Of a stretch of DNA of 27,941 nucleotides, positions 3,900-27,059 are shown piece by piece. The notes under the pieces were generated by a model that was not told the origin of the DNA, did not search any database, and saw nothing but the letters and a program-made list of their open reading frames with translations. The stretch spans positions 1 to 27,941 of the IMG/VR virus record IMGVR_UViG_3300041955_000261; one strand, written 5' to 3'. Within the stretch, counting starts at the first letter, position 1; every line of letters begins with the position of its first letter. Made by a program: the position numbers and the translations under genes. The stretch comes from a virus.

Positions 3900-4069
3900 T
3901 GGTCTTCTCCAAGGTTCTCAGGTGCTACTTCGATGATGTCGCCGCCATACTCGTCGGCGAAGGCCGCTTCGTCTTCCGGCCACTGGTCGGTTTCCACTTC
4001 GGCGACCAACTCGGCCCGCAACACGGAGCGCGAGAGGAAACCGTTCGAGCGGTAGATGCGGAGCGTCAC
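3896..4069 (-). CDS. Small acidic protein (57 aa), GTG start
   Basis: This short gene fills the gap between the primase-helicase and the DUF5664 gene. GTG 4069 overlaps the primase-helicase stop (GTGA), and AAGGAGAA lies at good spacing inside the end of that gene. The TGA overlaps the next ATG (ATGA). The product begins VTLRIYRSNGFLSRS and is acidic towards the C-terminus (EVETDQWPEDEAAFADEYGG). Its function is unknown. The two overlaps at both ends and the strong ribosome site make it a real gene despite the length. Confidence 0.8.
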   Translation of the reverse strand: MTLRIYRSNGFLSRSVLRAELVAEVETDQWPEDEAAFADEYGGDIIEVAPENLGEDQ

Positions 4070-6720
4070 GACTTCTCCTTTTCCGCCGGCTTGAGGGTCA
4101 GGTGAGGAACAAACTTTGCATGGTCTGTGCCGGAGATGGTTTTATGCCGCACGGGCAGTTCTCTGCCAACGCGGTTCTTCGACCAGGCGTATCTATCGGA
4201 CGCATCGAGCCAGTTCTGGAAGCGGTTGTAAAACTCCGTGAAGGGAGTGTGCTTCTCTGGCGTCTGTTCGCAGCGCTGCGTGATGAACTGATCCAGGGGC
4301 GTCTGATTGTCCTCCTGGGCGGACAGCTTGCTGCCCGTTGTCACCACCGGCAATCGCAGTCGGTCGATCATCGGCGGCAACTCCAGGTGCATGAGCGTGT
4401 AGAGGAAGTGCGGGGCTTCCTGGTCAAGGAGCGGCTCCAGCTTCGGCTTGGCGATCTTCTGCTCTTTCAGCAGATCGCCGACCGAAATCGCCGTGATGCG
4501 GGTGTCGCCGGGGAAGACGGGGCAGTTCTCGCGCCGGTTGGCCGTCTGGACCCAATGGGTCGCGTTAGGCTGCGCGAAGCAATCGTGCCGCATCTTGCGG
4601 ATCAGAATGGTCCGCCCCGTGCTGTACTCCTTGATCTTGGCGTAGGCACCGGGGGCCTTGGAGATGTCCACCTCCTCCACGGCGCAGATGATCGCGCCGG
4701 ATAGCTCGCCGTTGAATTCGCTGGTGAGCGACCGTTCCGCCTTGACCACGCCCTTTGTCACCAGCCGTTGCAAGGACTCGTAGAAAATGCTCTTCCCGCT
4801 ATCCTCCGGGCCAAAGAAGAAGAGGTACGGGAGGGGCTGGAAGGGGTCGCGGAAGGCGCAGGCGACCCAACTCCGCAGGTAGTCGGCCCCCGTCTTGAGG
4901 TTCGCGTCGATGGCCCAGGGCAACTCTCGCAACACCGGCGTTAGCTCGTGGCCGATGTGATCGAAGATCATGTCCCAGTGGGGATGGCAAGGAACCTCGT
5001 CGTCCGCCAACTCGGCCGGCTGGTACTTGAACTGCGCGGCGTCGAGATTCCATTGTCGGCCGCCGGGGTACTCTTCGCGGAAGGGGAGATTTACCAGCCG
5101 CCAACCGCGTGCGACGGCCGCGCCCATGACGGCCTCGGCCTCGTTCTTTGCGTGCCCCAGGTGTTGCAGCACCATCTTGACGTTGGAGGCGGGTTGCCGG
5201 ACCCATTCCTTCTTCGGATTCTTCAGCACCCAACCCGTGTGCTCAACGGCGGCCGACTCTACGGCCCGAATGATGTTGTCGAACTCGTTGAAATCGAGTT
5301 CATCGTCTTCCTTGGGGTCCGTCTGGACCTTGAAGATTTTGACGTATTTCCCCTTCTTGTCTTCCCAACCCTCCAAGGGTTCTTCATCCTTCTTCCGTTC
5401 GATCTCCACCACCAGCCGGCCGTCCTTGTGGGCCTTGAGCGTCACCTTGCGGTCGCCGATATTCGGCAGCGTGAGGTCTTCACCCAGGGTCTTGGCGGCT
5501 TCGATGGCAGCCTTGGCCGAGGAAAAGACGTAGCCGCCTTGCTCGCGCTCCACGCCGCCGAAGAGCGTGCAAGCGGTCGCCAAATCCGGGTAGCGGTTGA
5601 AGTAGCAGGTGGTCCAACCCTGGCCGTCCTGGGTCCAAGTATCGGCCTCATTGATGCCCGGTGAAAAGCGATAGACGCGCCAGGCCCCATTGGGCAGCGG
5701 GAAGAGAAAGCAGTTGGGCGTGCCGAGATCGCGGCCCTCGGAGAGCGTCTTGAAGATGCCTACCAATTTGGAAGCCTGGTCTTCGGGCTCCTCGATCAAC
5801 TTCTTGAGTGCGCAGGTGTGGGTCTGGAGCAGATGATGGTCGGCGACCCAGAGGGTGGTCGCGCCGGAACGCATCAGGGCCTCAATCTGGGCCTTGTGGC
5901 TTTCGTCCAGGGGAACGATCTTGCGGCTGGACGCCAGGGCCTCAAAAGGGTCTTGGTCGTTTTCGGCGATCTCGTTGACCTTGATCTTGGACCGTTGCCT
6001 CTTGACGACTTCAATATGCGAACGCCAGTTGGCCGGCAGGTCGGCTTCGCTCAACTGCTTCGTTGCCGGCTTGATGATCTCCAGGCCGTGGTTCTCGGCG
6101 GTCATTTTCCGGTGCCAAATCCACATGACGTGGCCGCAGGCGTCGATGGCGCTGGCGAAGTCGAAGCCCACTTCGGCCGACATCATCCCCAGGATGCAGC
6201 GGGCCAGTGCGGCATGGGCCGTGTGGTTGGCGGTCGGCACGCCGGCATCGTCAAGATAGATGTAGAGGTGGATGCCGCCGCCGCCAGTGCTACGGCGGAC
6301 TTCGACGTAGGGCAGGGCGCAAGCCGCTTGCTTGACTTTCTCCAATTGCTCCTCGTCGATGCCGACGCCCCTGGCGTGAGAAGTCAGGCTGTCGAAGTCG
6401 TAGCCAAAGTGCCGGGAACAACGGGCCTTCCAGTCCCAGCCCGTCATGCCGATGCCCTCGGCGTAGAGGTCAAAGGGATAAGTGATCTTGCGATCTTCCC
6501 AGATCGGGTCCGTGGCGGCGTTCTTTGGAATGCGGAGGGAATACCAAGTGTCGCTCCCGTTGGACCAGGTGGACCTCTTGCCGGCCACTGGCTCGCCATC
6601 AGCGGCAATGACGTTACACTGCACCTCCATGTCGATGGACCACCGGTCCACCAGATCGGCGTTTGCCGCCGTCTTGCGGGCCTGGAGAAAGTTATGGAGG
6701 GCTTCGCTGACTTTAGGCAT
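4066..6720 (-). CDS. Primase-helicase (AEP-like primase plus SF3/D5-type helicase)
   Basis: An 884-residue protein starting at ATG 6720 (MPKVSEAL), with GAGAGAG upstream; six further in-frame codons upstream are the end of the HNH gene. The N-terminal third has primase-like motifs: GMTGWDWKARCSRHFGYDFD (acidic pair at about 108-110) and RRSTGGGGIHLYIYLDD (about 142-158), matching the SxGxGxH motif of archaeo-eukaryotic primases. The C-terminal third is an ATPase: Walker A GPEDSGKS (about 637-644), Walker B-like IICAVEEVD (about 677-685), and a sensor-like THWVQTANRRENCPVFPGD, as in phage D5 or NrS-1 type helicases. It should prime and unwind DNA at the replication fork. It is the main gene of the minus operon, coupled to genes on both sides by overlaps. 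Confidence 0.88.
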   Translation of the reverse strand: MPKVSEALHNFLQARKTAANADLVDRWSIDMEVQCNVIAADGEPVAGKRSTWSNGSDTWYSLRIPKNAATDPIWEDRKITYPFDLYAEGIGMTGWDWKARCSRHFGYDFDSLTSHARGVGIDEEQLEKVKQAACALPYVEVRRSTGGGGIHLYIYLDDAGVPTANHTAHAALARCILGMMSAEVGFDFASAIDACGHVMWIWHRKMTAENHGLEIIKPATKQLSEADLPANWRSHIEVVKRQRSKIKVNEIAENDQDPFEALASSRKIVPLDESHKAQIEALMRSGATTLWVADHHLLQTHTCALKKLIEEPEDQASKLVGIFKTLSEGRDLGTPNCFLFPLPNGAWRVYRFSPGINEADTWTQDGQGWTTCYFNRYPDLATACTLFGGVEREQGGYVFSSAKAAIEAAKTLGEDLTLPNIGDRKVTLKAHKDGRLVVEIERKKDEEPLEGWEDKKGKYVKIFKVQTDPKEDDELDFNEFDNIIRAVESAAVEHTGWVLKNPKKEWVRQPASNVKMVLQHLGHAKNEAEAVMGAAVARGWRLVNLPFREEYPGGRQWNLDAAQFKYQPAELADDEVPCHPHWDMIFDHIGHELTPVLRELPWAIDANLKTGADYLRSWVACAFRDPFQPLPYLFFFGPEDSGKSIFYESLQRLVTKGVVKAERSLTSEFNGELSGAIICAVEEVDISKAPGAYAKIKEYSTGRTILIRKMRHDCFAQPNATHWVQTANRRENCPVFPGDTRITAISVGDLLKEQKIAKPKLEPLLDQEAPHFLYTLMHLELPPMIDRLRLPVVTTGSKLSAQEDNQTPLDQFITQRCEQTPEKHTPFTEFYNRFQNWLDASDRYAWSKNRVGRELPVRHKTISGTDHAKFVPHLTLKPAEKEKS

Positions 6721-7213
6721 TGATTTCTCTCTCTGCAAGGTGCTTCCAGGTCTTGCGGCGACGAACGTTCTGCACCGTTGTCAGGCAGACGCCATAGCGG
6801 CTTGCAACGAGGGGATCGGGATCGCTTGACCGCCTTATCTCACAAACCTGGGATTCGGTGAGACGTGCGGACATATTTAGCTCACCGATGGGGTGATAGT
6901 CCCGGTCCTTTTGATGGCGGTCGGCTGTGTTATCGGCGTCGGTGCCCAGGAACAAATGTCTTGGATTGACGCAGAGGCGGTTGTCGCAACTGTGGCAAAC
7001 GCGCAATGTCAAAGGGTCCGTCCTCTGAACTAAGAAGTAGGCAAGGCGATTGGACCGAAAACTTCGGCGGTCTATCGAGAACTGGCCATAACCGTACTTT
7101 GTCACGGTCCCTTGCCATTCCCAGCAGGCATCCATGCCGCGTCGGTCCACTTTGGACCAGAAGCGCGTGATTTGTTCTGAGGTCAGGGTGGGGATGGGCT
7201 TTGTCTTGGGCAT
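6713..7213 (-). CDS. HNH homing endonuclease with C-terminal HTH
   Basis: A 166-residue protein starting at ATG 7213. The HNH core runs through WSKVDRRGMDACWEWQG, GYGQFSI, RLAYFLV and RVCHSCDNRLCVNPRHLFLGT (about 19-92), giving the two Cys-x-x-Cys-like and His residues of HNH_3 proteins. The C-terminal LTESQVCEIRRSS and ASRYGVCLTTVQNVRRRKTWKHL (about 108-158) is a helix-turn-helix that would position it on DNA. Two other loci in the window carry the same C-terminal domain (9316-9474 and 24604-25110). It overlaps the primase-helicase start by 8 bases. Both genes begin ATG-CC-AA, which may reflect a duplicated start site, but that is weak. There is no clear ribosome site. Confidence 0.88.
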   Translation of the reverse strand: MPKTKPIPTLTSEQITRFWSKVDRRGMDACWEWQGTVTKYGYGQFSIDRRSFRSNRLAYFLVQRTDPLTLRVCHSCDNRLCVNPRHLFLGTDADNTADRHQKDRDYHPIGELNMSARLTESQVCEIRRSSDPDPLVASRYGVCLTTVQNVRRRKTWKHLAEREINA

Positions 7214-7279
7214 GGGTGTCGTTTCACAGAGCGTATAAACGCACTTGGCGACGGGCCTCGAAACAGCGTCCGCGGCGAT

Positions 7280-7359
7280 ACCTATACATGACCCTAGAAA
7301 CTCGGGTTTTTTCAGCGGAAGTTCTGAAAATAGCGACGTTTTTAGGGTCATGTATAGGT
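7280..7359. promoter_or_regulatory. 80-bp interrupted palindrome between divergent operons
   Basis: The outer arms 7280-7301 and 7338-7359 pair over 22 bp with one G-T wobble; 17 bp (ACCTATACATGACCCTA) are perfect. An inner 7-bp arm pair (TTTTCAG 7309-7315 and CTGAAAA 7324-7330) shares the same centre (between 7319 and 7320), with an 8-base apex. The two arm pairs are separated by a mostly unpaired 7x7 internal loop. It lies exactly where transcription diverges, between HNH/primase and the ParB-like gene. Each arm holds TATACA, a possible -10 box. An operator, an overlapping divergent promoter pair, a ParB-like binding site or a replication origin are all possible. Confidence 0.75.
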
Positions 7360-7384
7360 GAGCAAGTTTGACGCGGAAGCACCC

Positions 7385-8314
7385 ATGCCAGAGCAACCAG
7401 CCGACGAATTTCGCCCGATCCCCCTGGACCAGCTCGTCGAGCCGTGGGTGGTCCTGCGGGTCGTCAACCGCGAGGCCGTCGAGTACCTGGAACTGCGTGA
7501 TTCGATTGCCAAGCAGGGTCTGCTGAATTCCATCTGTGTGCGGCCGTCCCTGCGGCGGCCGGGCTACTACGAAGTGGTGGACGGACTCTATCGGTACACG
7601 GCGGCTTGCGAACTGCGGCTGCCGGCGCTCCCCTGCATCGTGAAGCAAAGCGTCAGCGACGAAGAGGTGCTGGCGCTTCAGATTCAGGCCAATGCGTTGC
7701 GGCCCGAGACGACGGCCATCGAATATGCCCGGCAAATCAGGCGGATCATGGACGCCATCACGGCCCGGCAGGGAAGGGACGCTTCCTTGGCCGACCTGAG
7801 CAATTTGATCCATAAGAGCCCAGACTGGATCGGCGCGCAACTCCGCTTGCTTGGTCTAGGCCGCGATATTCAGACGGCCGTGGAGCGGGGCGAGATACCG
7901 CTTGGCTCGGCCTATGTGCTCGCCAAGTTGCCGAGAGTCCAGCAGACACAATTTGTGGAACTGGCGAAGACGGCCACGGTGCGGGAGTTCACCCCTGTCG
8001 TGACCCGTCTCCTGAAGCAGATTCAAGAGGCGGCCCGGCAAGGGAGGCTTCACGACTACTGCAAAGATTTCGAGCCGGTGCCGCACCTGCGGCCGTTGAA
8101 GGAGGTGCTCGCCGAGCACAACGAGCACGGTCTTGGCGGCTTGGCCGTCGTGAAAGCCGGCAGCCAGACGCCGGTGGACGGCTGGTATTTGGCAATCCGG
8201 TGGGCGCTGAATCTGGACGAGGAAAGCATCCGCCAGCAACAAGAGAAAGTCCTGGCGCGGACCCGCGCAAATCTCTTGGAACGGAGGGCAAAGCCATGTG
8301 ACGACAACGAGTAA
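7385..8314 (+). CDS. ParB-like protein 1
   Basis: A 309-residue protein. ATG 7385 (MPEQPADEF) is preceded by GGAAG at short spacing; a GTG at 7358 lacks a ribosome site and would begin inside the palindrome, so it is less likely. The N-terminal domain (about 8-110) resembles ParB/Srx: PIPLDQLVEPW, LELRDSIAKQGLLNSICVRP, YEVVDGLYRYTAACEL, then QIQANALRPETTAIEYARQI. A helix-turn-helix follows (SLADLSNLIHKSPDWIGAQLRLLGL). The C-terminal 100 residues are not recognised. Phage ParB-like proteins can bind sites, act as nucleases or regulate. It is the first gene right of the palindrome, which makes that site a candidate target. A second, different ParB-like gene lies at 20807. Confidence 0.85.
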   Translation: MPEQPADEFRPIPLDQLVEPWVVLRVVNREAVEYLELRDSIAKQGLLNSICVRPSLRRPGYYEVVDGLYRYTAACELRLPALPCIVKQSVSDEEVLALQIQANALRPETTAIEYARQIRRIMDAITARQGRDASLADLSNLIHKSPDWIGAQLRLLGLGRDIQTAVERGEIPLGSAYVLAKLPRVQQTQFVELAKTATVREFTPVVTRLLKQIQEAARQGRLHDYCKDFEPVPHLRPLKEVLAEHNEHGLGGLAVVKAGSQTPVDGWYLAIRWALNLDEESIRQQQEKVLARTRANLLERRAKPCDDNE

Positions 8315-9235: not shown

Positions 9236-9303
9236 GACACCGTGGTGTTCAAGCAGCACGCCGGCTAGAGCCGGAGGTCCGGGTTCAAGTCCCGGCGGCG
9301 TCT
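9236..9303 (+). other. tRNA-like cloverleaf with a 4-base anticodon loop
   Basis: The T-arm is canonical: CCGGG, loop TTCAAGT, CCCGG (9279-9295). The 3' acceptor side CGGCGTC (9296-9302) pairs with GACACCG (9236-9242) at 6 of 7 positions. Between them a D-arm-like hairpin (GTG 9245-9247 with CAC 9257-9259) and a perfect 5-bp anticodon-like stem CCGGC/GCCGG (9261-9274) fit in order, with an AGGT variable loop. The anticodon loop is only TAGA, three bases short of seven, and the D-loop lacks GG. There is no encoded CCA. It may be a decayed tRNA gene, a tRNA mimic, or the tRNA 3' half of an attachment site. The T-arm is sure; the rest is not. Confidence 0.4.
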
Positions 9304-10070: not shown

Positions 10071-11264
10071 ATGCAGCCCTTCTTCGAGCGAGACAACCTG
10101 AGCCTGTACTGCGGCGATTGCCTGGATGTGCTTGCCACGCTGCCGGAGAACAGCGTGGACTTCGTGGCGACGGACCCGCCCTACGGGATTTCGTTCATGG
10201 AGAGGGACTGGGACCACGATGTTCCTGGACCCGAGTATTGGCGAGCCATCGCCCGCGTGTGCAAGCCCGGCGCTTTGATGCTCGCCTTTGGCGGCACGCG
10301 GACCTATCACCGGCTGACCTGTGCAATCGAGGACGCCGGCTGGGAGATTCGAGACTGCTTGATGTGGCTCTACGGCCAGGGTTTCCCGAAGGCGGCCGAC
10401 ATCGGCAAGTTGATCGACAAAGCGAAGGGCGCGCAGCGCGAGGTCATTGGCGACAAGCTGGACCGCCCCGGCTATCACCTGCGGGAGGGCAAGGGGAACG
10501 GGTGCTATGGCGGCGGCAATGGCCTCCATGCGCCCGGCACCGACGCTCGGCTACGCGCCGCGCAGATAACGGCCCCGGCCACTGCCGAGGCCACAAAATG
10601 GACCGGCTGGGCGGCGGCGCTGAAACCCGCCTTCGAGCCAATCGTCCTGGCGATGAAGCCGATGGACGGCACCCAGGCCCACAACGCCCTGACCTGGGGC
10701 GTGGCGGGCATGAACATCGACGCCGCCCGCATCGGCACCGATAGCACGGTGCGCACACGGGGCGACAGCCTGACGGCCGCTGGCTGGTCCAGCACGAAAC
10801 GCTCCCCCGTGGGTGGGTCGGAATGCGGGCGATGGCCGGCGAATCTGTTGCTGGATGAAGAGGCTGCCGCCCAATTGAACGAGCAGACCGGCACGCTCAC
10901 CAGCGGCACCAACTGCGTCCGCACCAAGTCTGGCGACGGCTATCACGGCGGCATCGGCAACGCGGGCGACGTTCAGGTGAGCTACGGCGACAGCGGCGGG
11001 GCCAGTCGCTTCTTTTATGTAGGCAAGGCGACCAGGAAGGAACGCGGGCCGGGCAACGACCACGCGACAGTAAAGCCCCTGGACCTAATGAAGTATCTGC
11101 TCACGCTGCTCTCGACCCCGAACGGCGGCGTGATCCTGGACCCCTTCGCCGGCAGCGGCACCACGCTGTTGGCCGCGCAGCAACTCGGTCGGTGCTCAAT
11201 TGGCGTCGAGTTGAGCGAACACAACTGCGAGATCGCCAAGTCTCGCCTTGAGAGGATCGCATGA
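10071..11264 (+). CDS. DNA adenine methyltransferase (beta class)
   Basis: ATG 10071 ([21 protein letters not shown]) is preferred over the upstream TTG at 9999, because the family begins here and the upstream codons read through the promoter-like element. The product has 397 residues. The catalytic motif DPPYGISF (about 43-50) precedes the AdoMet-binding [13 protein letters not shown] (about 358-370), the order of beta-class enzymes. The middle ([43 protein letters not shown]) is typical of phage site-specific methyltransferases. It probably methylates adenine N6 in a target that cannot be read from sequence. No partner restriction nuclease is nearby, so protection against host restriction or a regulatory mark is likely. 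It overlaps the helicase start (ATGA). Confidence 0.9.
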
Positions 11265-14065
11265 CGCTTGAATCCGTGAAGGTCGAGGCCCAGACATCCG
11301 GCGGGACGCGCATTCGCGTGCCCGTGCTGCTGGAGCGGAAGGATGGCCGCATCTATTTCTGGGACGGCAAAGTCGGCACGAAGACCCGCTACGGGCTGAT
11401 GGCGGAAGTCAAGGCGATGTCCGGTGCGCATTTCCACGGCTACGACGACGAGGGCGAGTACGCCAGGGTCAAGGTCTGGTCGGTGGACGACTGCCAACGC
11501 AACCGCTTCCAGATCGGCTACCTCTGCGGGGAGGACGTTTATACGTGGTTTGATCGTCCGCTGATTCGCCATGAGTACCGGCAATTTCTTCGGGCCGGGC
11601 AGCCAGCCGAGGTCATGCCCCATCAATACGATCTGGCCGACGCCGGCCTGACGTACCACTACCAGATATTCGCGGCCGAAATGGGGTGCGTGGATGGCGA
11701 CGCCGCTGTCCAGATCAACAGGGCCGGCCGGGGATTCAAAATCAGCTTGGCGGAATTGTGCCGCAAGTTCCATTGCGGAAAAGATGGTGGCCGGGCATGG
11801 GATCGGTCCATTCCCACCTTTATTCGGTCCCTATGTGGCGACACGTTACGGCTGAACCGCATCGTCAACGTACTGGACAAATCACGCCAGCCCGTTGTCC
11901 AGGTGCGACTGACCAATGGTGCCTCTATTCGAGTGACCCCTGACCACGAGTTCTTTGACACCGACGCTAACCTGCTTCGCGCTGACGCGCTGAAGTCCGG
12001 CAGCCGCATTTTGGTCAGCGGGCTTCTTAACAATGGAGCGGAGGCTTGGACACCATTAGACCGGCATGATGTGGGTGCGTATGTCTGGGTGCCTTGCCCA
12101 GGTCATCCATGTGCCGGTCGCCGGGGCACCATGCACGAGCACGTGCTGGTCATGGAGAAGTACCTCGGACGGTATCTTCGGGACGACGAGGTAGTTCATC
12201 ACATTAACGGGCGCAAGGACGACAATCGTTTTGAGAACTTGCAATTGCTGCGGGACGCGGAGCACAAAAAGCTTCACGCACAAAGAGGCGGCTTCAGAAA
12301 TCTCTCGGGTGGCCGTGATCGTGTTGACTTCAACGTGGGCCTGGGGACCGTGGAATCGGTGACGCCGGCTGGAAGTGCTCATGTCTATGACGTGGTGTGC
12401 GCGGACCCGTACCGCAATTTCGTTGCCAATGGCATCGTGGTCAAGAATTGTGGCAAAACGCTGGCCGCCCAGATGGCGATTGAGAAGTCGGGTGTCGATC
12501 TGGTCTGGTGGGCAGGGCCGAAAACCAGCATCCCAAACATCAAGCGCGAGTTCAAGCTGTGGGGGTTTCCCTTCGACGGCATCCAGGTGGAGTTCTTCAC
12601 CTACGAGCGACTGGTCCGCGTGATGGACGAATGGGACGGCTCGCAAACCTTGCCTCGGTTCTTTGTGGCCGATGAATCGAGCCGCTGCAAGAACGACACG
12701 TCGCAGCGCTCGAAAGCCTGCCAGAAGCTCGCGGACCTGATCCGAGAAAAGTACGGCCTGGACGGCTACGTGATCGAGATGTCGGGCACGCCGTCGCCCA
12801 AAACGCCGTGCGACTGGTGGAGCCAATGTGAGATCGCCTGGCCGGGATTCTTGAAGGAGGGCAGCCGCCGGGCGATGGAAGAACGGCTGGCCTTCATGGT
12901 CGAGCAGCAATTCGACGCCGGCAAGTTCAAGAAGCGGATCGGCTGGAAAGACGACGAGCGGAAGTGCGCCCAGTGCGGCGAAACCCGCGAGGAAGGGCCG
13001 CATGAGTTGGACGGCGAGGCCAACCCCGACGATTACCACAAGTTCGTCCCCAGCACCAACGAGGTCGCCTACCTCTACGAACGCCTCAAGGGCCTGGTGA
13101 TCGTCAAGCACAAGAAGGACTGCTTGCACCTGCCCGAGAAGCGCTACCGCAAGATCGTGTGCAAGCCTACGGCCAGCATTTTGCGCGTGGCGGAATCCCT
13201 CGTCCGCGCGGCCCCGAATGCCGTGACGGGCATGACCTTGCTGCGGGAACTGAGCGACGGGTTCCAGTACCGCGAACAGCAAGAGGGAGTGACGAAATGC
13301 ACGCATTGCACGGAGGGCACCGTGGCTCAGTGGGTGGACCCGGACGATGCCGAGGCCCGATACGAGGCCGTTGACATGCTGGACCCCGACCTAGTGGCCC
13401 GGCTGGTCAAGGAGACGGTCCCCTGCCCGCTGTGCAACGGCACGCGGGAAGTTCCCAAGATGGTGCGATTCACGCGAGAGCTGCCCTGCCCGAAGGACGC
13501 CGCCCTGAAGATGCTGCTGGACGAGAACGAGGAAGTCGGGCGGCTGGTGGTTTTCGCCGGCTTCACGGGTTCCGTGGATCGCATCGTCAAGCTGTGCCTC
13601 AAGGAAAAGTGGGACGTGGTGCGGTGCGACCAGGGGAACTTCCAGGTCTTCGCCGCCAAGAGCGACAGCCCGGAAGGCATTTTGATAACGGGCGAAGAGC
13701 CGCTGGATTACTGGGCCAACACGGAGGGACACGGCAAGGTCGCCTTCGTGGCAAACCCTGAATCGGGCGGCATGAGCCTGACATTGGTAGAGGCCCGCAT
13801 GGCGGTGTACTGGTCCAACAGTTGGAAGCCGGAGTACCGCGTGCAGAGCGAGGATCGCATCCACCGCAAGGGCATGGACGAGAACTTGGGCTGCACCATT
13901 GTGGACCTGATCCATCTGCCGAGCGATGACCGCGTGCTGGGCGTGATTCGCGCCAGCCGTCGCCTTGAATTGATGACGATGGGCGAACTGATGGCCGGCA
14001 TCCGGTGGGACGCAGGCGGGGACGAAGCAGACGGAACTCTCCAGATTGTGGAGGCCGTGTCGTGA
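11261..14065 (+). CDS. SNF2/SF2-type DNA helicase interrupted by an intein
   Basis: 934 residues as translated; 680 after removal of the 254-residue intein at 143-396. The host protein has [10 protein letters not shown] before motif I, a Walker A split as AAEMG / CGKTLAA, motif [14 protein letters not shown], motif [13 protein letters not shown], and motifs [19 protein letters not shown] and [12 protein letters not shown]. The QSEDRIHR-x-G signature marks the SNF2 superfamily. Zinc-finger-like pairs sit between the lobes (CAQCGETR, and CTHCTEG with CPLCNGTR). Phage members act in replication restart or DNA remodelling. The intein must splice to rebuild the ATP site, so activity depends on splicing. 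It is coupled to the methyltransferase upstream (ATGA) and to the next gene (GTGA). Confidence 0.9.
11687..12448 (+). mobile_element. Intein with HNH endonuclease in the helicase Walker A
   Basis: Residues 143-396 of the helicase frame. Block A is [10 protein letters not shown] with catalytic Cys1. Block B is RVTPDHEFF, the TxxH motif. An HNH domain ([33 protein letters not shown]; about 292-328) sits between the splicing halves. Block F is [18 protein letters not shown] and block G is VVKN followed by Cys397, the +1 residue that also is the Cys of GCGKT. The penultimate residue is Lys where His is usual. Splicing would join EMG to CGKT. It is a complete, probably active homing intein. Confidence 0.92.
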
Positions 14066-20012: not shown

Positions 20013-20810
20013 ATGCCTATCTTCTGCGTAAGCGACCTGCATTTGTGCGACCGCGGCTACCGCGACAACTTCTGCGCCGTGGAGGGCCGCGAGGCCCGCT
20101 TCCACAAGTTTTTGGATTATGTAGAGACCGAGGGTGGCCAACTCTACGTCCTGGGCGATTTGTTCGACTTCTGGCAGGCCAATATGAGCCGGGCCGTCGT
20201 GGCATACCTGGACCTGCTCACGCGCCTGGACAAGATGCAGGCGGTCTACGTCATGGGCAACCATGATTGCGCCTTGTCGGCGTTCATTGGCCAGACGGCC
20301 TTGATGCCGGGGCACCCGTTCTTCCTGCGGGAGGTGCGGGGCTTTGAGCGGACCATCGGCGGCAGGCGGTTCGCCTTCCTCCACGGCCATGAATCCGACC
20401 CCTATTGCCGTGACGCAAATCCCGGCATGGGCGACATTACCGCGATCATCTCCGGCATGTTGGAAGACCGCAACCGGGGTCCATTCACGGCAAATCATCA
20501 TGCCGTCGAAGACCAGTTCGTCGGCACGCTGGAAGCGGCCTTGACCCTCTGGCGGCATCTGACGTTCCAGCACGGCCGCATGGACGAAATGCTCGACGGC
20601 GTGGAAGCCTACCGCAAAGAAGCCGGGGCCGACGTGGTGGTCTACGGCCATACGCACGAGCCGGGCCACATCGGCGATTACCATTTCAACTCCGGCTGCT
20701 GGGCCAGGACCAACGACACCTTCGTGCGGATCGAGGAGGACGGCCAAACCGCCGTCTGGGAATGGCTGCCCAGCAACCGGCCGGCGCTGTTTCCCCAAAC
20801 TTTGCGATGA
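20013..20810 (+). CDS. LpxH-like metallophosphoesterase
   Basis: A 265-residue protein; ATG 20013 is set by the ribosome site at 20001-20006 and by the family start (MPIFCVSDLHL). A longer open frame upstream is a shadow of the preceding gene. Motifs: SDLHL (D8, H10), LGDLFDFW (D49), MGNHDC (N83, H84), LHGHESDP (H124, H126) and YGHTHEPG (H213, H215). The layout resembles UDP-2,3-diacylglucosamine hydrolase LpxH and related phosphatases. A lipid A role is unlikely to be needed by a phage; nucleotide or nucleic-acid phosphoester cleavage is as likely. It is the second metallophosphoesterase in the window. It overlaps the ParB-like gene (ATGA). Confidence 0.85.
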   Translation: MPIFCVSDLHLCDRGYRDNFCAVEGREARFHKFLDYVETEGGQLYVLGDLFDFWQANMSRAVVAYLDLLTRLDKMQAVYVMGNHDCALSAFIGQTALMPGHPFFLREVRGFERTIGGRRFAFLHGHESDPYCRDANPGMGDITAIISGMLEDRNRGPFTANHHAVEDQFVGTLEAALTLWRHLTFQHGRMDEMLDGVEAYRKEAGADVVVYGHTHEPGHIGDYHFNSGCWARTNDTFVRIEEDGQTAVWEWLPSNRPALFPQTLR

Positions 20811-21631
20811 AGCCGCTGGAGCAATACCAGGCGTACCCCATCCCGGTGGCGGCCATCTACTACGATGCCGCGTTCAACTGCCGGGGCGAGTTCACGCTGC
20901 AATCGGTGAGGGAACTGGCGGACAGCATCGCCCAAGCGGGGCGGCTGATCTGCCCGGTGGCCGTGCAGCCCTGGACGGGAGAGCCTGGATGCGACTACCG
21001 GCTGATCGTCGGCCACCGCCGCTTCCGGGCCGTGACCGCCTTCCTGAAATGGACGGAGATTCCGGCCTACATCTGCGAAGGATTGAGCGACCATGCAGCC
21101 CGCATGTTGAACGTCGTGGAGAACTTGCAACGCAAGAGCCTGAACATCCTGGAAGAGGCCCGCGCGATCCAGAACCTTTATCCCGAAGGGGCAAGCGTGC
21201 GGGAGGCGGCCCGTGAGCTAAAGCAGTCCACGCGATGGGTCTGGGTCCGGGTGCGGCTGCTGCGGATGCCGGAAGCGATCCAGCAGAAGGCCGCCGCCGG
21301 CCTGCTCTCGCAGACGAACCTGGAACGGCTGGCGGGCCTGGAGAAACCGGACGAGCAGATCAAGCTCGCCGACGCGATAGTTGAGGCGCGGCAGCGTGGC
21401 GGCGGCAAATTCCTGCCGGGTCTGGACAAGGCGTATAAACGCTCGCGGGCTCGTCCGCGCGAAGAGATCAATCGCATGGTCGAGCGGCTGCTGGCCGCCG
21501 GCATTGCCGGCCTGCCACCTCGGGTGGCCGCCTGGTGCGCGGGCCACGTCTCGGACGAGGACTTGCTGAAAGACATTGAGGCGGAACATCTGAGAGGTGA
21601 ACCCGATGGACACGCCAACGGCCCCGGCTGA
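20807..21631 (+). CDS. ParB-like protein 2
   Basis: A 274-residue protein starting at ATG 20807 in an ATGA overlap. It is closer to classic ParB than the protein at 7385. The N-terminal domain has YPIPVAAIYYD, SVRELADSIAQAGRLICPVAVQP, YRLIVGHRRFRAVTAF (the GHRR box) and LNVVENLQRKSLNILEEARAI (the ENxQR box). A helix-turn-helix follows (SVREAARELKQSTRWVWVRVRLLR). The C-terminal third is different from chromosomal ParB. No ParA gene is in the window. It may be a site-specific DNA-binding regulator or a plasmid-style partition protein. The next gene starts inside its end. Confidence 0.88.
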   Translation: MKPLEQYQAYPIPVAAIYYDAAFNCRGEFTLQSVRELADSIAQAGRLICPVAVQPWTGEPGCDYRLIVGHRRFRAVTAFLKWTEIPAYICEGLSDHAARMLNVVENLQRKSLNILEEARAIQNLYPEGASVREAARELKQSTRWVWVRVRLLRMPEAIQQKAAAGLLSQTNLERLAGLEKPDEQIKLADAIVEARQRGGGKFLPGLDKAYKRSRARPREEINRMVERLLAAGIAGLPPRVAAWCAGHVSDEDLLKDIEAEHLRGEPDGHANGPG

Positions 21632-25885: not shown

Positions 25886-26386
25886 ATGGAACTGCAACAA
25901 CGTCCTGAGCCCTGGATGTGTATGCCCTTGGCCTTTGCGATGGCCCTGGACGTGCCGGTCGCCGACCTGCTCGCGGCCATCGGCCACGACGGCGGCGAAA
26001 TCGTGTTTCCGAGCCTCCCTGAGCCGCTGTGCCGGCGGTGCTTCCACGTCCAGGAGCTAATCCAGGTCGCCTTGGCTCGCGGCTTCGCCGTCACGCCGAT
26101 CGAGTTGTTTCCCGTGCTGCAACCGACCGAGGCTGGGCCGTTCCACAAAACGGTGCTCTACCCGGACAACAACTGGCGGCGATTCGAGGCAACGATTCGC
26201 GCCAGTCGCGGCGTGATTGACGGCACCGGCGCACGCTTCGGCCATACGGTTGCCTACGACCACGGCCGCATCTACGACCCGCGCGGGCCGGTCTACGACT
26301 ACAGCCGGCTCGCCTGCGAGGCCCACCAGTTCTACACCCGCTCTGCCTGGCGAATCGACGCCATTGGAGAACGCACCCATGAGTAA
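25886..26386 (+). CDS. C39-like cysteine peptidase-fold protein
   Basis: A 166-residue protein. ATG 25886 is preferred; TTG 25835 would extend it through the tandem repeat. The start EPWMCMPLAFAMALDVPVAD resembles the Cys-helix of papain-like C39 peptidases (C12), followed by LLAAIGHDG and FHVQELIQVALARGFAV. The His and Asp are in ARFGHTVAYD (H120) and RIYDPRGPVYD (D131). Phage proteins of this shape are seen, without known substrate. They could be processing proteases, transglutaminase-like or inactive. The fold call rests on motif order; activity is inferred. It overlaps the sigma gene by 8 bases. Confidence 0.65.
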   Translation: MELQQRPEPWMCMPLAFAMALDVPVADLLAAIGHDGGEIVFPSLPEPLCRRCFHVQELIQVALARGFAVTPIELFPVLQPTEAGPFHKTVLYPDNNWRRFEATIRASRGVIDGTGARFGHTVAYDHGRIYDPRGPVYDYSRLACEAHQFYTRSAWRIDAIGERTHE

Positions 26387-27059
26387 TTACAACGACGCGC
26401 TCATCACTGACATGCACCGTGCAACCAGAGGCGAAACCCTGGATGCAGCGAAGAACGCCGCCCTCTTCGAGCGGGTGGCGGCCGGGGACGCGGCAGCCCG
26501 CGAAGAAATGATCGTTGGCAACATGCCATTGGCGGTTGCCAAGGTGGAGAGCTTCCTTCGCTGCTTTCCGGGAGTCACCCACCTTCGGGACGATCTAACG
26601 AGCGCCGCCTTTACCGGGTTGGTCAAGGCCGTCAACCAGATGGCAGATGGATGCCGGATCAAGCAACCAGAGAACTGGAATCCGACCGACTGCATCGGGA
26701 CATGGATCAATCGGGAGTTGAGTCGACTCACCGAGAGCGAGGCACCGATTCACATTCCACAAGACTCTGCGCGTCTGGCAAAGCAAAAGGGCGAACCGAT
26801 CCCCATTCCTGTAGTTCAGAACGTCATCCCCGAACGCTTCGAGGTTCCTTCTTACGAGAAGGAGCTGGAGATGCGCGATCTGATTGGGTCTTGTTGCCGC
26901 AGCCCGGAGGAGCGGACCTTCGTTGCCATGCGGGAGGCTGAGCACACCTACGCTGAAATCGCCGCGGCCATTGGCAAGCCGCTCGCATCCACTTACGCGA
27001 TGGCCAAAGCACTGGACGCCCGAGTCCAGCAGAAACTCAAGGCCCTATGCAACGAATGA
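26379..27059 (+). CDS. Phage-encoded sigma-70 family factor
   Basis: A 226-residue protein; ATG 26379 has GGAG upstream. Region 2: LFERVAAGDAAAREEMIVGNMPLAVAKVE and DLTSAAFTGLVKAVNQMADG (about 30-95). A linker has IHIPQDSARLAKQKG, like the region 3 entry. Region 4: MREAEHTYAEIAAAIGKPLASTYAMAKAL (about 184-212), a helix-turn-helix for the -35 box. It would redirect host RNA polymerase to phage promoters. It lies about 100 bases before the second copy of the promoter-like element, so self-recognised promoters are plausible. It overlaps the genes on both sides. Confidence 0.85.
   Translation: MSNYNDALITDMHRATRGETLDAAKNAALFERVAAGDAAAREEMIVGNMPLAVAKVESFLRCFPGVTHLRDDLTSAAFTGLVKAVNQMADGCRIKQPENWNPTDCIGTWINRELSRLTESEAPIHIPQDSARLAKQKGEPIPIPVVQNVIPERFEVPSYEKELEMRDLIGSCCRSPEERTFVAMREAEHTYAEIAAAIGKPLASTYAMAKALDARVQQKLKALCNE

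Follow-up and report, generated by a model that had tools for sequence, protein, structure and literature searches.

What is the function of the 80-bp palindrome at positions 7280-7359 of the window, the whole stretch of 27,941 nucleotides analyzed here, at the point where two phage operons diverge? The original prediction described a concentric palindrome which was unlikely to have arisen by chance and which carried TATACA in each half-site, and on both counts the sequence agreed. The inverted repeat (7280-7315/7324-7359) has arms of 36 nt with 83% complementarity and a gap of 8 nt, and is the top-scoring inverted repeat of the window. Its outer arms, perfect over 17 bp and extending to 22 bp if one mismatch is allowed, share their centre with inner arms of 7 bp (TTTTCAG/CTGAAAA). 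A 17-bp arm within 110 bp was present in none of 100 Markov shuffles of the window; the largest shuffled arm was 16 bp, and arms of at least 12 bp occurred with a mean of 0.41 per shuffle. As single-stranded DNA the palindrome gave a folding energy of -26.3 kcal/mol (z = -8.6).

The palindrome is located in an intergenic space (7214-7384) flanked by a leftward HNH gene and a rightward ParB-like gene. The ParB-like gene (7385-8314, plus strand; PF02195 and PF17762) opens the rightward operon. The leftward operon is opened here by the HNH endonuclease gene (6713-7213, minus strand; phrog_1872, E = 9.5e-27), which is absent from the corresponding place in many relatives, and its main gene codes for a primase-helicase (4066-6738, minus strand; phrog_1156 DNA primase, E = 7.3e-21; PF19263). 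These domain and phrog matches confirm the flanking genes as they had been named from the sequence. The accompanying statement that all genes to the left are read leftward is valid only to about 2.8 kb, because the far left (275-1954) is read rightward. No host sigma-70 promoters or terminators were found in the intergenic region.

Relatives were collected by searching IMG/VR with the ParB-like protein, which gave 11 and then 35 loci, in records that may be incomplete. No similar DNA was found in the phage collection, genome contigs searched with ParB gave no match, and literature searches revealed no published report of these phages. In 34 related records the pair of arms has the primase operon on one side and the ParB operon on the other; in all loci except the most divergent one, about 20-30 bp separate the outer end of the palindrome from the ParB start. 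A lack of conservation of the arms in related genomes, which the original prediction had named as a refuting outcome, was thus clearly not observed. The arms vary strongly among phages and are nearly identical inside one phage (e.g. TTTGGCAGTCTTTTATAGG, TTTGGGAGTCATGTGTAGG, TTTTTCGTTAGGTCTAGG and TTTTGGCCATTGATTAGGG). The two members of the pair are spaced 73-81 bp apart in 29 of the 34 records, and 88, 99, 152, 199 and 212 bp apart in the others. Since this spacing is variable, the palindrome appears to be a by-product of tight spacing, and symmetry is not the conserved feature. In some relatives (e.g. L035 and L037) the identity between the two arms extends 6-10 bp past the GG, beyond the identity with the third copy described below; gene conversion, in the form of local copying from one arm to the other, may contribute to the palindrome in such relatives.

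Alignment of all copies revealed one directional, two-part module consisting of an inner element, a variable spacer and an outer block ending in TRTA-GG. The middle of the block lies 17-18 bp away from the inner element; in the window the inner CTGAAAA is accompanied by the block TTTTTAGGGTCATGTATAGG 17-18 bp further outward. The module thus has the layout of a sigma factor promoter, namely two elements about 16-18 bp apart, directional and situated before genes. The putative rightward promoter consists of the -35-like CTGAAAA (7324-7330, plus strand), which recurs with the same spacing across the copies of each genome, and the -10-like block TTTTTAGGGTCATGTATAGG (7339-7358, plus strand), delimited by the module alignment; its transcription start is predicted at about 7357-7358. 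The putative leftward promoter, based on the same alignment and on the copies within the genome, consists of CTGAAAA at 7309-7315 and the block TTTCTAGGGTCATGTATAGG at 7281-7300, both on the minus strand. It follows from the module alignment that the concentric inner arms are two -35-like elements placed back to back. With the -35 elements registered by hand, the inner element was, depending on the phage, CTGAAAA, TGGAAA, TGGGAA, TGGGGA, TGAGAA, GAAAC or GTCACA. The conserved outer block exceeds a usual -10 element in length, and part of it could accordingly be read by another protein.

Each whole record was also searched with its own arm. In addition to the pair, no record gave more than one other strong copy; where present, it is single, co-directional and located ahead of the gene (MQRVTDL...) that opens the packaging, or late, operon, which carries the terminase large subunit (PF05876). 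This third copy is present in nearly all records containing the late region. In 11 of these (G002, G008, G012, G013, G014, G016, G017, G029, G031, G033 and G035) it showed 0-3 mismatches; the expectation from shuffled arms was 0-1.6 per genome. Records without it mostly end before the first gene of the late operon, and three proviruses end exactly where the next gene starts. The window fragment is without the late region, and the third copy of the window phage itself is for this reason not visible. Similar, unscored stretches precede both the ParB gene and the first late gene in G019, G041 and G042; in G019 the module is not clearly recognisable at either place. When genome contigs were searched with the terminase, one related complete prophage (G043) was identified on contig QQVP01000119.1 (444 kb), which belongs to a Planctomycetota MAG. 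Its pair is spaced 212 bp apart, and its third copy before the late gene is diverged and weaker but recognisable. A second copy of the first late gene occurs in G012 (77166-77849) with a different promoter word, TTTTGGGACTCTTCTATA, and perhaps belongs to a second related provirus.

A candidate for the protein which reads these promoters is encoded by the last long gene of the rightward cluster (26379-27059, plus strand). Its 226-aa product was assigned to the sigma-70 family by profile, fold and phrog searches. A 15-member profile of the family matched only sigma factors in the PDB, the best being 1l0o_C (E = 1.4e-11), which we take to be the sigma-F/SpoIIAB structure. Homology to sigma region 2 is present, the profile matching region 2 of RpoS, SigA and RpoD as well as the full-length sigma 1l0o_C. 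The alignment with 1l0o_C reaches the helix-turn-helix of region 4, where the AlphaFold2 model has a helix pair (191-198/202-225). The model (mean pLDDT 78) comprises two domains, the relative arrangement of which is uncertain, with, at the position of region 3, only a short linker containing one helix between them as in two-domain (ECF-like) sigmas, and its Foldseek matches were mostly RNA polymerase sigma factors. The window protein also matched the sigma factor family phrog_351 (E = 0.0013). Profile searches detected the sigma gene in 33 of 38 records and in the prophage, the match in the most divergent record having an E value of 5e-14; the remaining five records are fragments which apparently end before this region. 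Among closer relatives the sigma is much more variable than its neighbours, with identities of 54-68% compared to 70-93% for the neighbouring proteins.

The variation of the promoter elements was compared with that of the proteins in 13 close genomes, using distances corrected for core-genome distance (partial r). The inner element correlated with sigma region 4 (partial r = 0.57, p = 0.0005) and not with region 2 (r = 0.11), while the outer block correlated with region 2 (partial r = 0.42, p = 0.003) and not with region 4 (r = 0.03), the p values being those of distance-permutation tests, which can overstate significance. This is a double dissociation: the inner element tracks region 4 only, and the outer block region 2 only. 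In the same genomes, ParB distances showed no correlation with the inner element or the outer block (r = 0.02 and 0.08, respectively), and those of the DNA polymerase none with the promoter elements. The primase was weakly correlated with the outer block in this close set (r = 0.27, p = 0.03), and with the -35 element across all 26 genomes (r = 0.31).

Among 3604 columns from 13 protein families, residue 206 of the window sigma, located in the last helix of region 4, had the highest mutual information; by permutation z-score it was third, after two clade-marker columns. With respect to the -35 class, GAA is associated with Y, H, S or F at this residue, GGG with Q or R, and GAG with N, while GGA is mixed. 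The one-residue rule is broken by G041, where GAG occurs with A, by one copy in G030, and by G002 and G014, which both combine GGA with Y. On the core-protein tree there are 11 changes of the -35 class, and independent pairs point in the same direction by about 5 to 0, which is borderline in a sign test (median p = 0.06). The prophage, which was outside the set used for finding the rule, has a TGAA element with Y at residue 206 and fits it. We regard it as an even question whether every lineage possesses a sigma of its own, paired with -35 and -10 words specific to that lineage, the specificity having been reset repeatedly and largely via this one residue of region 4.2. If true, these phages would offer a natural series of mutually distinct sigma/promoter pairs from which a sigma recognition code could be read (Y/H GAA, Q/R GGG, N GAG).

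Based on the sequences, the palindrome is very probably a divergent promoter pair for the phage-encoded sigma factor, which would also drive the operon of the sigma gene itself. Each arm would be one promoter, its -35-like CTGAAAA being read by sigma region 4 and its -10-like outer block (TTTTTAGGGTCATGTATAGG) by region 2, and transcription would start outward near the GG. One promoter would serve the leftward operon (HNH, primase, exonuclease) and the other the rightward cluster (ParB, methylase, helicase, DNA polymerase and, near the end, the sigma gene), whereas the third copy, outside the window fragment, would serve the late operon (terminase, portal, capsid). Catalysis would be provided by the host RNA polymerase core. 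Since the sigma gene is inside the rightward cluster, positive feedback is likely, and the circuit would probably be self-reinforcing once started. The palindromic look would result from two identical directional sites facing away from each other at close range. The usual spacing puts the -35-like elements about 8 bp apart, and two polymerases may consequently hinder each other.

The original prediction had offered an operator over overlapping divergent promoters, a ParB-type binding site and a replication origin as candidate roles. Of the first, the divergent promoters are supported, but the arms themselves seem to be the promoters and not an operator overlaid on them. A phage repressor or activator, possibly ParB, which binds both arms over ordinary host promoters would agree with matched arms that diversify together, with the adjoining ParB-like gene and with the site at the late operon. 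This reading is nevertheless improbable: the site is directional and bipartite, a host-type -35/-10 promoter was not found in 6900-7700, the two blocks separately track sigma regions 4 and 2 instead of ParB, and the spacing of the pair varies. An operator for a repressor or activator in part of the long outer block is possible. The ParB-type site was not upheld, as the unit is directional, occurs singly at the third place and does not track ParB in sequence; a parS site, which would be short, symmetric and co-varying with ParB, was rejected on these same observations.

The TATAGG start suggested promoters read by a single-subunit phage RNA polymerase like those of T7 and SP6, with a variable block at -12 to -5. 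The outer block alone is indeed similar, having an AT-rich start, a variable middle and TRTA followed by GG. However, no such polymerase was found in 10,146 ORFs of the 38 records (the SP6 positive control gave E = 4e-118), and a search of 8 records for PF00940, run without a positive control, gave no match. The conserved upstream element CTGAAAA, which promoters of this type do not need, tracks sigma region 4, and T7/SP6 promoters were rejected as very unlikely. An origin of replication or a cruciform, with the extruded hairpin as the functional element, would suit the strong hairpin potential and the replication genes on either side. We consider it extremely unlikely, since none of 15 records showed a GC-skew inflection at the palindrome, the halves are 73-212 bp apart among the relatives, and the third copy stands single before the late operon without a partner arm.

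The proposed sigma-dependent promoters can be compared with several known systems. The sigmas of SPO1 (gp28, gp33/34) and T4 (gp55) redirect the RNA polymerase of the host to phage genes of the middle or late class, and such phages are lytic and have many promoters. Redirection of the host enzyme by a phage sigma is proposed here as well; in contrast, the phages described here include a prophage in a Planctomycetota contig, and the promoters head each operon, the replication operons included. Sporulation-type sigma factors of Bacillota phages have been linked to host sporulation genes (PMC9429907). The top PDB match of the present family, 1l0o_C (labelled "sigma factor" by the tool), is a point of likeness to these, but the sites found in the phage records head the phage's own operons.

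Phage sigmas with few promoters of their own are already known, best in phiEco32 and 7-11, where these promoters are well conserved (PMC4331800). Shared features are a sigma distantly related to the sigma-A family, conserved promoters in low copy number, a sigma gene behind a sigma promoter, and the assumed use of host core RNA polymerase; phiEco32 in addition has an anti-sigma protein (PMC4331800). The present case differs in belonging to another phage group, in that only three copies were found, two of them back to back and so close that they form a palindrome, and in a sigma family which diversifies fast together with matched promoters. New are thus the phage group, the three-promoter layout with its palindrome-like tight pair, and a matched change of sigma and promoter which has occurred repeatedly. 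A striking palindrome would be explained as a point of regulatory switching, and for an uncultured phage group with a Planctomycetota prophage among its members a promoter map would be available that is nearly complete and includes the regulator. Since sigma and promoter appear to have changed together many times while the surrounding genomes remained similar, the set would be a ready-made test bed for the choice of -35 and -10 elements by sigma factors, and a source of promoter/sigma pairs that may not cross-talk.

Several further features were observed. In 25 of 33 records the primase operon has in its leader a symmetric 12-mer, GCGTNTANACGC (GCGTATAAACGC in the window, 7231-7242), and several of the other records have near variants of it. 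The position of the 12-mer is nearly constant, about 72-93 bp from the centre of the pair on the primase side, and copies also occur near the late promoter in G013, G016, G017 and G029. From its sequence the 12-mer looks like an operator, and as a candidate ParB-type site it would be preferable to the palindrome. In the full records of G002, G003, G009-G013, G017, G020 and G029, the cumulative GC-skew has its maximum close to the sigma gene (in most cases no more than about 1 kb away) and not at the palindrome; this maximum possibly marks a replication or strand-bias boundary.

The rightward cluster contains a second ParB-like gene (20762-21631; PF02195 and PF17762). The helicase-like protein encoded at 11261-14065 has an HNH-type inserted stretch, intein-like in appearance; in G002 and G008 the homologous proteins have 678 aa instead of 934, and the G002 sequence is continuous without the insert. 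A single odd tRNA-like gene is located at 9236-9303, for which ARAGORN called a two-base anticodon and the Rfam tRNA score was 38.5.
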